A stretch of DNA of 64,000 nucleotides from Natronorubrum halophilum (GTDB lineage Archaea > Halobacteriota > Halobacteria > Halobacteriales > Natrialbaceae), in NCBI RefSeq assembly GCF_003670115.1, contig NZ_QQTY01000001.1, forward strand, positions 186,001-250,000, in the 5' to 3' direction. Under the pieces are notes generated by a model, which was not told the origin of the DNA, searched no databases, and saw only the letters and a program-made list of their open reading frames with translations. The stretch's first letter is position 1, and each line of letters starts with the position of its first letter. Shown one piece after another: positions 5,576 through 35,556 of this stretch. Both the position numbers and the translations under genes were made by a program.

Positions 5576-5623
5576 TCGTCGGCGGATCGACGCTCTCCCC
5601 GCGATTTCCATTCCCGTGGTGGC

Positions 5624-5673
5624 GCGCGCTGAGCCGTGGTGAGTGAGTAGCGAACCACGGCTCGACAGCGCGC
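5624..5673. repeat. Long imperfect hairpin between the amine oxidase and a small gene
   Basis: GCGCGCTG (5624-5631) pairs with CAGCGCGC (5666-5673), and AGCCGTGGT (5632-5640) pairs with ACCACGGCT (5654-5662), with a 3-nt bulge and a 13-nt loop. It is followed by a GCGAGCGCAGCGAGCGAACG-type run common in haloarchaeal intergenic repeats. It lies 48 bp after the amine oxidase stop and could end transcription, but no T-run follows. Confidence 0.6.
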
Positions 5674-5848
5674 GAGGGATGAGTGAGCGAGCGCAGCGAG
5701 CGAACGAATCGGTTGGGGAGGACGTGGTGCTCATCGTTGCCAGCAACTGCAGTACGTCCTGTTCTCTCACTTCCAACTCGAGCAGTTCCCACCCGGAACT
5801 CGAGCGAGCCGTCCGCTCGCGTTCGTACCGCAGCGGACAGATACGCTA

Positions 5849-6025: not shown

Positions 6026-6121
6026 GCGTATTCGTAGCATTCGGGCGGCCTTATAGTCCGGTGTCCGTCGCCGGTCGCCGCCAGCGGTACGATTTAGTGG
6101 GTTGCAGTGATACGTCAGCGC

Positions 6122-7396
6122 ATGACGTTCTACGAGCGGGAATTTATGGAAGGCACGCGCGGCACGCAGGCCGTCGACTGGGAGCAGCGGATCGACACCC
6201 GACGGCTTCGCGAGGAACGAAAAGAGAAGGCCCTCGAGCGCCTGCGGGAGACCGACCTCGGTGCGATACTCCTCGTCTCGGACCCCAACATCCGCTACGT
6301 GACGGGGCTGGCGATGACGGGCGGCAGCGGCGCGGACCACTACACTCTCCTGACCGAAACCGGCGATATCGTCCACTGGGACACCGCGGACCACGCGAGC
6401 AACCAGCGGTTCAACTGTCCCTGGCTGCACGACGTCCGTTACGCCTGTCCCGGACTCGGAAACGTCCCGCGGGCGTCCGGCCGCGACTCGGCTCGCGACT
6501 TCCTGCTCTCGACGATGGCCGAGGGCGTCGCCGAGGCGGCCGAGGAGTACGGCGTCGCCGACGAGACGCTCGGCGTCGACGTCGGCAACCGAGGGCTGCT
6601 CGCCGCGCTCGAGGATCAGGGCCTCGAGACCGACGTCGAGGCCTGCAACGCGATCATGGAGGACGCCCGAAAGGTCAAGACCGAAGACGAGATCGAGTGC
6701 TTGCGGATGGTCGCCTCGATCTGCGAAGCCGGCTTTCAGACCATCAAGAACGCCGCGGAGCCGGGGAAACGCGAGACTGAGGTCTGGGGCGAGGCCGTCC
6801 GCGAACTGTGGCGTCACGGCGCGTTCGTCGGGGGCGGCTACCTCACGTCCGGACCGAACACGTGGCCGAAACACCAGGCCAACACCACCGATCGGGCAAT
6901 CCGGCCGGGCGACCTGGTCTACGCCGACTTCTACAACGTCGGCTACCTCGGCTACCGGTCGTGTTACTACCGCACCTTCTCGATGGGCGAGCCGACTCAG
7001 GAGCAGCGAGAGGCCTACGAGACGGCTCGAGACAACCTCTACGACGTGCTCGAGCGCATCGAACCCGGGGCGACGACGGACGAAATCGCTCGAGGGTTCC
7101 CCGACATGGAAGGCGAACACGCCGACTACTACGACGCCGACGAACACTGGCAGATGACCACGAACCACTGGGCGCACGGGCTCGGGCTCCAGCTGTACGA
7201 GGTGCCGCTGATCTGGCGCGGCCTCTCGCCCGATCACCCGATCGAGATCGAGGAGGGGATGACGATGGCCGTCGAGACCCAGGAGCCGGCCGGTCGGCAG
7301 GGCGTCCGCGTCGAGGAGATGGTCGTCGTGCGAGAGCACGGCGTCGAAATCCTGAGCCAGTGGCCCGTCGAGGAAATCACCGTTATTGACCATTAG
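6122..7396 (+). CDS. M24-family (Xaa-Pro peptidase/creatinase fold) protein with an altered metal site
   Basis: A 424-residue pita-bread-fold protein. The N-terminal creatinase-type domain (about 1-180) has DPNIRYVTGLA. The C-terminal catalytic domain has Asp269 (VYADFYNVGYLGY), His352 (HWAHGLGL), Glu385 (AVETQEP) and Glu398/399 (VRVEEMVVV). The second Asp of the usual DxG...D metal pair is missing: the aligned stretch is RSCYYRTF. That loss is typical of members that are not ordinary two-metal aminopeptidases, such as creatinase. The ATG at 6122 was preferred over an upstream GTG at 6107 because a TTTAG-type box lies about 27 nt upstream. Confidence 0.8.
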   Translation: MTFYEREFMEGTRGTQAVDWEQRIDTRRLREERKEKALERLRETDLGAILLVSDPNIRYVTGLAMTGGSGADHYTLLTETGDIVHWDTADHASNQRFNCPWLHDVRYACPGLGNVPRASGRDSARDFLLSTMAEGVAEAAEEYGVADETLGVDVGNRGLLAALEDQGLETDVEACNAIMEDARKVKTEDEIECLRMVASICEAGFQTIKNAAEPGKRETEVWGEAVRELWRHGAFVGGGYLTSGPNTWPKHQANTTDRAIRPGDLVYADFYNVGYLGYRSCYYRTFSMGEPTQEQREAYETARDNLYDVLERIEPGATTDEIARGFPDMEGEHADYYDADEHWQMTTNHWAHGLGLQLYEVPLIWRGLSPDHPIEIEEGMTMAVETQEPAGRQGVRVEEMVVVREHGVEILSQWPVEEITVIDH

Positions 7397-7805
7397 CGTC
7401 GCTCGTACGACTCGACTTGATTTGACCCCCCTCGATATCACACGAGTCAACGACACCACGAAAGCCCCTGGCACTCTCGCTGGTTGCGACTCGCTGCGGT
7501 CCTCGCCCTTCGGGCTGCGGTCCTTATGTCGTCTCACACAGCGAGAGTGCCAGCCCCTTTCATTCCCACCCGCGGTGGCTTGCCCGACCAGCCGGTATGG
7601 GTGGGAATGAAAGGGGCTGGAACCGTCCGGGAAGACGGACGACGTAAGCACGCGACCGAAGGGAGCGCGCGCAGCGAGTCCATCGACCGGACGGTTCCAG
7701 GGGCTTTCGTGGTGTTCTCAACGGCGATGCGTACCACCAAACCGAGTCCTGTGACTGATAATCGACGTACCAACAATTAAGCCGGTCACACTGAATAATA
7801 CGAGT
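7397..7805. other. Intergenic region holding a cloverleaf inverted-repeat element
   Basis: No credible coding sequence is present. Most of the space is the repeat at 7453-7715. The rest is the promoter of the monooxygenase at 7806, with a TATA-like AATTAA at 7775-7780, 26-31 nt before its ATG. Confidence 0.6.
7453..7715. repeat. Cloverleaf-like element: outer stem plus three inverted-repeat arms
   Basis: The outer stem is a perfect 19-bp pair: ACACCACGAAAGCCCCTGG at 7453-7471 with its complement at 7697-7715. Inside are three arms. Arm 1 is TGGCACTCTCGCTG (7469-7482) with 7539-7552. Arm 2 is a perfect 22-bp pair, 7550-7571 with 7599-7620, containing CCCCTTTCATTCCCACC. Arm 3 is GGAACCGTCCGG (7619-7630) with 7687-7698. 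Neighbouring arms share bases at their junctions, so the whole could fold as a four-way junction. A related element lies at 35246-35501. It may be a non-autonomous mobile element or a structured RNA/DNA signal. Confidence 0.75.
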
Positions 7806-8813
7806 ATGAAACTCGGGACGGGCCTGTTCACCGCCCAACGGCGGCCCGACGACGATCGCGACTCGAGCGAGCTGTACGACGAGATTCTGACGCTGACCCG
7901 CGAAATCGAAAACGCGGGGCTCGACAGCGCGTGGGTGTCGGAGCACCACTTCGCCGCCGACGGGTATCTCTCCGGGACGATGCCGACCCTGGGGGCGATG
8001 GCCGCCGAGACGACCGCCCTCGAGATCGGCAGCTGCGTCGCGCTCGGCCCGCTGTACGATCCGATTCGTCTCGCGGAGGACGCCGCGACCGTCGACCTGC
8101 TCGCGGACGGACGACTAACGCTCGGGCTGGCGATCGGATCGAATCCGCGGGAGTTCGATGTCTTCGGCGTTCCGCGGGACGAGCGAGCCGATCGCCTCGA
8201 GGATCTCGTCCCCTTCCTCCGGGCCGGCTGGAGCGCGGGCGACCTCGAGTACGACTCGTCGTTTCACGACGTGCCGACGGACGTCTCGATCACGCCCAAG
8301 CCGCCCGGCGAGTCGGTGCCGATCGTGCTCGGCGGCGGCGCGAAACCGGCGGTCCGGCGCGCCGCGCGAACGGCTGACGGCTGGTGTGCCCCGTCATCGC
8401 TCTCCGTCGAGGGCGTCCGCAAGCGCGTCGAGGATATCCGTCGGGTGCGCGAGCAAGAGCGCATTCCGAGCGACTGTACGATCTACGCCCTCCAACACGG
8501 CTGGGTCGGCGACTCCCGCGAGGACGCCTGGGAGACGATGCGCGACGGCTACTTCTACATCCAGCGGCGCTATCAGGAGATCTTCTCCGGCGAGTCCGTC
8601 GACGAACTCGAGGCCGAACGCAAGGCGGAACTGAAAGAACAGGCGATCTTCGGCACCCCGGAACAGGTGGTCGACGAACTCGAGCGCTATCGCGACGCCC
8701 TCGGCGACGAGAGCCACTTCATCTTCCGGACCTACTATCCGGGCGTCGGGACCGACGAACTGATCGACTGCGTCCATCGGCTCGGAAACGACGTCGCTCC
8801 GGAGCTCGAGTGA
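7806..8813 (+). CDS. LLM-class flavin-dependent oxidoreductase (luciferase-like)
   Basis: A 335-residue bacterial-luciferase-fold TIM barrel. Recognisable segments are WVSEHHFAADGYL (the EHH of group-A monooxygenases), LADGRLTLGLAIGSNPREFDVFG, and VPIVLGGGAKPAVRRAA. These enzymes use FMNH2 or F420; haloarchaea have both, so the cofactor is open. A leaderless start at 7806 is supported by the upstream TATA-like box. Its place beside the aromatic degradation genes suggests a catabolic oxygenase or an F420 reductase acting on a CoA or aromatic intermediate, but no substrate can be read from the sequence. Confidence 0.85.
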   Translation: MKLGTGLFTAQRRPDDDRDSSELYDEILTLTREIENAGLDSAWVSEHHFAADGYLSGTMPTLGAMAAETTALEIGSCVALGPLYDPIRLAEDAATVDLLADGRLTLGLAIGSNPREFDVFGVPRDERADRLEDLVPFLRAGWSAGDLEYDSSFHDVPTDVSITPKPPGESVPIVLGGGAKPAVRRAARTADGWCAPSSLSVEGVRKRVEDIRRVREQERIPSDCTIYALQHGWVGDSREDAWETMRDGYFYIQRRYQEIFSGESVDELEAERKAELKEQAIFGTPEQVVDELERYRDALGDESHFIFRTYYPGVGTDELIDCVHRLGNDVAPELE

Positions 8814-35101: not shown

Positions 35102-35556
35102 CCGAACCGGCTCTGTCGAACTCTGTAGCGGTCGATATGGCACCCACCTCTCCGGTACGTACAGGCTGCGGCGTCACCAGTCGGTTTGTCTTAGTATCAT
35201 CTTCTGATAGATGGTGGAATACAGAGAGAACGTGGCAACACCACCTCGAAAGTCCCCGCCCCTTTCAGTCCACCCGTTGGCTCGTCCTCCCCAGCCGACT
35301 CGCTCGCTGCGCTCGCTACCGCTCGCGACGACCTCGCCGGCACGCCTCGCAACTGCTCGGCACACCGTCAGCGCGCGCCACGTGGCCGGGAGTGCGGCCG
35401 GCCCTGGCGGACTGAAAGGGCGACGCGGGCTCGCGCTGAAAGAGCGTCGCTGCGGTGGCGCTATCCGCCGCAGCGGCCGCGAGCCCGCTGAGGGCTTTCG
35501 AAACCGTATCCGAGACGAGAGGACAGAGAAGACAGCAGCCAGTCGATTACCGAACC
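35102..35556. other. 455-bp intergenic region occupied by a structured repeat
   Basis: No coding sequence is credible. The dominant content is the multi-arm inverted-repeat element at 35246-35501 described separately. The flanks look like ordinary intergenic DNA. Confidence 0.55.
35246..35501. repeat. Multi-arm inverted-repeat element related to the one at 7.5 kb
   Basis: The outer pair is TCGAAAG (35246-35252) with CTTTCGA (35495-35501). Arm 1 is GCCCCTTTCAGTCC (35258-35271) with GGACTGAAAGGGC (35409-35421). Arm 2 is GCGGGCTCGCG (35425-35435) with CGCGAGCCCGC (35478-35488), holding an inner stem CGCTGCGG (35448-35455) with CCGCAGCG (35468-35475). CCCCTTTCA-TCC and CGAAAG are shared with 7453-7715. 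The 20-mer GTGGCAACACCACCTCGAAA (35232-35251) spans the left edge and recurs at 61139-61158 with one change. It may be a non-autonomous element. Confidence 0.7.

Follow-up and report, generated by a model that had tools for sequence, protein, structure and literature searches.

The 64,000-nucleotide stretch of Natronorubrum halophilum DNA analyzed here (hereafter the window) carries, at positions 7453-7715, a set of nested inverted repeats, and the question it raises is what kind of element this represents. A preliminary description proposed a perfect 19-bp outer inverted repeat enclosing stems of 14, 22 and 12 bp whose ends abut in a four-way junction. The outer repeat and the 14- and 22-bp stems were recovered as described, while the third inner stem was found to measure 13 bp; all four are perfect (Table 1). 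The cloverleaf fold also stands, although the stems overlap rather than merely abut, since three bases (TGG/CCA) are common to adjacent stems at the junction, which can thus branch-migrate. This cloverleaf is the RNA minimum-free-energy fold of positions 7430-7740 (-188.7 kcal/mol, z = -13.5), none of 100 shuffled sequences being as stable, and the fold of positions 7440-7730 under DNA parameters (z = -9.7) was better than those of all 200 shuffles, so that the nesting indeed exceeds chance expectation. In the best DNA fold, the two halves pair mutually as a single long hairpin in which the middle arm is retained. The feature is intergenic, both flanking gene families being present in the Pfam scan of neighbouring genes described below, and the ORFs crossing it are presumably the usual spurious ORFs of GC-rich DNA. 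A cis-regulatory RNA at this site was rejected, as ACCAACAATTAAGCC, a conserved promoter-like element belonging to the downstream gene, is located beyond the repeat on its downstream side and is retained in the congener G005, which is without the repeat.

Table 1. Coordinates of the repeat, its component parts and adjacent features in the window (R1, covariance model of the unit; S, variable hairpin)
Feature	Position	Strand	Details and basis
Repeat E, alone	5610-5735	+	
M24-type peptidase gene, upstream neighbour	6107-7396	+	
Left unit U, pointing left, R1 positions 1-118	7452-7571	-	R1, 98.4 bits, E 3e-18; constant flanks GGGTGGGAATGAAAGGGGC / GGGGCTTTCGTGGTG plus variable hairpin S
Outer stem, 5' side	7453-7471	.	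Pairs with 7697-7715, 19 bp, perfect; 3' constant flank of left unit
Arm 1, variable hairpin S of left unit	7469-7552	-	Stem 7469-7482 / 7539-7552, 14 bp; exact positions and family alignment
Middle arm, paired 5' constant flanks of both units	7550-7620	.	7550-7571 / 7599-7620, 22 bp
Central spacer inside middle arm	7572-7598		
Right unit U, pointing right	7599-7716	+	R1, 100.2 bits, E 1.3e-18; one of the 67 units from which R1 was built
Arm 3, variable hairpin S of right unit	7618-7699	+	Stem 7618-7630 / 7687-7699, 13 bp; exact positions and family alignment
Outer stem, 3' side	7697-7715	.	3' constant flank of right unit
Conserved ACCAACAATTAAGCC, promoter-like element of downstream gene	7769-7783	+	Sequence comparison of G000, G003, G005 and G006
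Luciferase-like oxidoreductase gene, downstream neighbour	7806-8813	+	
Second copy, degenerate: constant flanks without S (GAAAGGGGCGGGGACTTTC)	35240-35275	-	R1, 31.8 bits
Repeat E, adjoining the degenerate unit at 35240	35285-35400	-	

Each half of the cloverleaf represents one copy of a dispersed unit of ~118 nt, the two copies lying in opposite orientations, and the feature is a head-to-head (inverted) doublet of this unit. The cloverleaf arises because the two units stand head-to-head: the halves being inverted copies, the constant flanks of the two units pair with each other to form the outer and middle stems, while arms 1 and 3 are the S hairpins of the units. The functional unit is thus the single hairpin unit, and not the cloverleaf that the preliminary description had taken as the element. 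Comparison of copies from relatives gives the layout GGGTGGGAMTGAAAGGGGC-S-GGGGCTTTCG, in which S is a variable hairpin with conserved internal loops; the constant flanks can pair GAAAG with CTTTC, and GGG/GGG separates them from S. In one genus (seen in genome G140), CAAAG pairs with CTTTG in place of GAAAG/CTTTC. The unit is about 110 bp long with inverted terminal repeats (a 118-position model with flanks GAAAGCCCC/GGGGCTTTC). Its S outer stem differs between copies, with 152 distinct 9-mers among 211 units, and the S interior retains the motif GACGACGYAAGSACC ... GSRCAGCGAGTC. Internal mismatches are also kept, namely an A.A pair, the loops GAA/GA and YAA/A, and the GGG/GGG that separates stem P1 from S.

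At three loci (L120, L154 and L214), the constant flanks surround a wholly different S hairpin (CGCCCGGTCGCGTT..CGACCGCGAGCGGGCG), from which the S types are regarded as exchangeable modules. Further small hairpins, e.g., TTCGAGAGAGC..GCTCTCTCG, were seen inside the S hairpin at L296 and L301 of genome G255 and at L119, L005 and L042, and the CGTTCGAGAGAGC motif reappears in unrelated loci. Of note, a second dispersed structured repeat, designated E (GTGGCGCGYGCTGA..hairpin..GCGAGGGATGAG..hairpin..TCGGYTGGGGAGGACGWGG), is also present in the window (Table 1); nearly all of the G140 copies examined have E immediately before the unit.

The preliminary description had allowed for a local accident, should no similar element be found elsewhere; relatives of the unit occur class-wide. 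By blastn, 24 of 41 related genomes contained matches, which lay on both strands and mostly covered half of the query. The pattern TGAAAGGGGC-N65-95-GGGGCTTTC was found in 74 of 121 genomes of the family, a control pattern giving a single match in one genome, and the covariance model R1 detected the unit in 167 of 194 Halobacteria genomes, representing 57 of 65 genera. In the phylum sample, R1 had no matches outside the class Halobacteria, and every matching genome fell within the window's own order. The matches listed from a scan of named genomes cover many genera, all of them Halobacteria, including Halorussus, Natronococcus, Halobaculum, Halomarina, Haladaptatus and Halobacterium. Copy number varies widely, with core-motif counts ranging from 0-6 to 136 per genome (6 in the present genome, 48 in G101, 82 in G140, 89 in G238 and 136 in G226). 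Viral contigs contained no match to the exact pattern, and phage records likewise returned no matches; a few haloarchaeal plasmids bear copies, and the Haloquadratum plasmid PL47 has no R1 match. No description of the unit was found in the literature searched, an earlier report in subscription journals being possible.

Only 14 of 204 units lie within a predicted ORF, and their orientation relative to neighbouring genes is mixed. The 131 neighbouring genes tested are housekeeping genes, the commonest Pfam family accounting for four of them, and none encodes a transposase, TnpB or an IS605 protein. An autonomous element with an adjacent transposase was therefore rejected, as was a cis-regulatory RNA of one gene family, given the unrelated neighbours and mixed orientation. 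A terminator, already doubted in the preliminary description, was likewise rejected, since the units are not limited to regions between convergent genes. As a separate observation, an S15-Halobacteria ribosomal protein leader (RF03143) lies near a doublet in genome G004 (locus L003, 1304-1374, minus strand).

The arrangement seen in the window follows a general rule. Among 67 close neighbour pairs, drawn from all loci examined, 63 are head-to-head, four are direct and none is tail-to-tail. The core gap of the head-to-head pairs is 33-36 nt in 46 cases, 23-26 nt in three and ~135-330 nt in the others; that of the window doublet, 35 nt, is a spacing that recurs class-wide. Certain doublets pair one full with one empty unit (L006, L064, L111 and L131). 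Since some exact TGGGACTGAAAGGGGCTTTCG matches are full units with a stem starting TTTCG, not all such matches are empty sites, and only these four loci together with L058, L060, L069, L071, L074 and L075 were taken as empty.

Individual sites change rapidly between relatives. The window site is empty in G005, holds a doublet in G006 and is reduced to a collapsed single hairpin in G003. In G140, the unit is embedded in a larger, ~360-bp repeat whose ends are sharp and at which no target duplication is visible; the gene junctions of two G140 copies are empty in seven and four sister species, respectively. Copies of this larger repeat at two loci (L253 and L261) were observed just downstream of putative tRNA-Gly and tRNA-Thr genes, as read by eye. 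When 14 sites of G140 were compared with those of its close relative G255, the same S type was present at one. A different S type was found in G255 at the sites of L234 and L240, where the flanks are well matched, and at those of L243, L247 and L251, while at the L250 site S had additional hairpins inserted. At L299 (G255), S is reversed relative to L248 (G140) while the flanks are unchanged, as though its two arms had recombined with each other and flipped it. The L236 and L252 sites are decayed, and those of L241, L244, L246 and L249 contain no complete unit within the stretch examined. As a side observation, L297 and L298, situated 13 kb apart on the same G255 contig, apparently have one and the same sequence from E across U and into the downstream block; this likeness, judged by eye and from identical S ends, suggests recent gene conversion or duplication.

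Two orthologous sets contain both states of a site: in set g44, L072 and L073 are full while L071, L074 and L075 are empty, and in set g7, L066-L068 are full while L069 is empty. In both sets, a 5-bp direct repeat, GGGGC, bounds S at the full sites and is single at the empty orthologues, a pattern compatible both with an insertion that duplicated 5 bp and with a deletion by slippage, and which may thus be a deletion scar. As to the target-site duplications for which the preliminary description had proposed to look, no clean duplication of a whole unit or doublet was found. Of the three identities originally considered, i.e., a transposable element, a recombination substrate or a structured RNA, the occupied and empty orthologous sites favour a mobile or fast-turnover element, although presence and absence could reflect repeated loss instead of gain.

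The fold itself is under constraint. Across 133 aligned units, 95.7% of pair cells hold standard pairs, and in 480 cells both partners have changed. Covariation was scored at 0.430, compared to 0.102 for shuffled and 0.017-0.051 for slid controls; this score benefits from an alignment fitted to the model, while the slid controls and the exchange of G-C to C-G in P1 (119:14) do not rest on model fit alone. The covariation of stem pairs among relatives, whose absence would have pointed to an accident, is therefore very strong. Furthermore, the tolerated mismatches reveal which strand folds. At the outer 12 positions of S, read in the orientation of the unit, G.T/T.G combinations number 102 as against 18 A.C/C.A (p = 2e-15, calculated over units that are not independent); at the outer nine positions the ratio is 16:5 in paired and 32:5 in single units. 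This bias is independent of the direction of the neighbouring genes, reaching 14:1 in units antisense to both, and the excess of G.T over A.C on one strand whatever the nearby gene orientation indicates that this strand folds. Such a bias is predicted by a self-folding strand, be it RNA or single-stranded DNA, and not by a double-stranded cruciform. It is proposed, by analogy with known bacterial repeats, that the unit is probably a non-autonomous miniature mobile hairpin, similar to REPINs and SMR-A elements, acting via a folded single strand, a reading to which we assign a probability of roughly 0.58.

An RNA could account for the strand bias equally well, and the main rival to a mobile hairpin is a structured non-coding RNA family, in which the U strand would be transcribed, its loops (GAA/GA, YAA/A, A.A) and G tracts would act in trans or be recognized by a protein, and its copies would spread as genes or cassettes. 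The covariation and the conserved asymmetric loops look RNA-like, although a folded single DNA strand predicts the same covariation, and C-G, U-G and U-A interchange at one pair, in agreement with the preference for G.T on the U strand. Against this, no consistent upstream sequence or promoter-like motif was found in 111 single units, which, together with the independence of the wobble bias from gene orientation, makes single-stranded DNA slightly more likely than RNA in ordinary transcripts. Moreover, sites are not conserved between sister species, and at gathering threshold Rfam returned no family over the feature, nor for the repeat in the window or in five loci; under permissive settings only weak, sub-threshold microRNA-hairpin matches to the middle arm appeared. 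An RNA family is considered rather unlikely.

The exchange, inversion and nesting of S at fixed sites, its deletion between flanking GGGGC repeats, and the two G255 copies that are apparently the same element would suit a further explanation, namely passive selfish palindromes devoid of a dedicated enzyme, which, in polyploid haloarchaea, would arise, spread and become homogenized through gene conversion, template switching and replication slippage. Similar selfish palindromic repeats of 10-100 nt in Volvox organelles are described, in the passages concerned, as inserted into one another (PMC2670323). Template-switch correction would, however, erase the internal mismatches that are kept class-wide, so that the pairing is probably not a mere by-product of such correction, and neither the strict head-to-head orientation and fixed spacing nor the strand-specific wobble is expected of passive repeats, which makes this explanation quite improbable. 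A DNA structural site, i.e., an extruded cruciform and/or a G-quadruplex serving chromosome organization, termination or recombination, is very improbable: four G runs that could possibly form a quadruplex show conservation of 0.92-1.0, with a variable base separating the first two of them (GGGYGGG-N7-GGGG-S-GGGG), and the haloarchaeal cytoplasm is rich in K+, but in doublets the G tracts can pair with C tracts instead, copy number varies from 0 to >100 among related species, sites are not conserved and there is no functional link to neighbouring genes.

With regard to the mobile hairpin, recognition of a folded single strand is the best explanation by analogy with REPINs, given the doublets, the singlets that are probable remnants of them, and the alternative long-hairpin and clover folds. 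Mobilization would begin when one strand becomes single-stranded, allowing the unit or doublet to fold; an enzyme supplied in trans would then recognize the fold, and the doublet, the putative moving unit, would be transferred or copied from one intergenic site to another. Once a site is occupied, its S would be exchanged, inverted or deleted via recombination and slippage between the constant arms. As to the enzyme, a REP/RAYT system was rejected since the Y1 transposase family (PF01797) is absent from the seven high-copy genomes G140, G142, G146, G238, G046, G197 and G028, and retro-mobilization was rejected since a reverse transcriptase is present in one of the 40 genomes tested. More tentatively, and with some doubt, one may envisage a class-wide two-level system, in which a small conserved hairpin (GAAAG-GGG-CTTTC) has a tip that accommodates exchangeable hairpin cassettes, and in which an enzyme that is neither a Y1 transposase nor a reverse transcriptase, acting on one folded strand, produces head-to-head doublet copies of it.

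These data provide a covariance model for an unannotated repeat found in most of the Halobacteria genomes tested, a repeat that gives rise to recombination, rearranged genomes and wrongly annotated ORFs. Its exchangeable hairpins naturally record how palindromes turn over in polyploid cells, and the question of what mobilizes such repeats becomes directly testable in culturable haloarchaea.

Several known systems resemble the unit in part. As in the Volvox palindromes, its hairpins are nested, confined to non-coding DNA and subject to fast turnover (passages of PMC2670323), while the unit is longer (118 nt) and non-organellar, and the Volvox passages report neither a fixed doublet rule nor a strand-specific wobble. 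PATEs and the ends of IS605-type transposons are likewise palindromes that would act as single-strand hairpins; the present unit differs in having no adjacent transposase or tnpB and in forming head-to-head doublets with fixed spacing. The closest haloarchaeal entity, compared by description, is SMR-A of Haloquadratum walsbyi, an element of ~110 bp with inverted repeats, no transposase gene and up to tens of copies, which tends to sit within a small palindrome, whose mobilization is enigmatic, which targets IS605-type transposons and PATEs, and whose copies of the same type are nearly identical (PMC3119063). The unit shares with SMR-A its haloarchaeal host, a length of ~110 bp, inverted terminal repeats and the lack of an ORF, whereas its neighbours are housekeeping genes, with no IS605 proteins, and its S is highly variable. 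REPINs, or BIMEs, are inverted doublets of REP sequences in bacteria (PMC3116915, PMC2817692), for which two alternative folds, hairpin and clover, have been described (PMC3116915). Like them, the present units are extragenic dispersed hairpins, recurrently arranged as inverted doublets but also found as singlets, with alternative hairpin and clover folds and a non-autonomous nature; inverted doublets with a short spacer are over-represented compared to other arrangements, and dispersal in the extragenic space of one genome is also seen. They differ in length (~118 nt with a variable internal hairpin, as opposed to short REPs), in their archaeal host and new sequence family, and in that several high-copy genomes lack the RAYT (Y1) gene that repeats flank in REPIN systems. 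The unit would thus work like a REPIN or SMR-A and is assigned to neither, because the REPIN analogy fails at the enzyme and SMR-A was compared by description. REPIN-like inverted hairpin doublets are thereby extended to a whole archaeal class, apparently without the transposase thought to move them.
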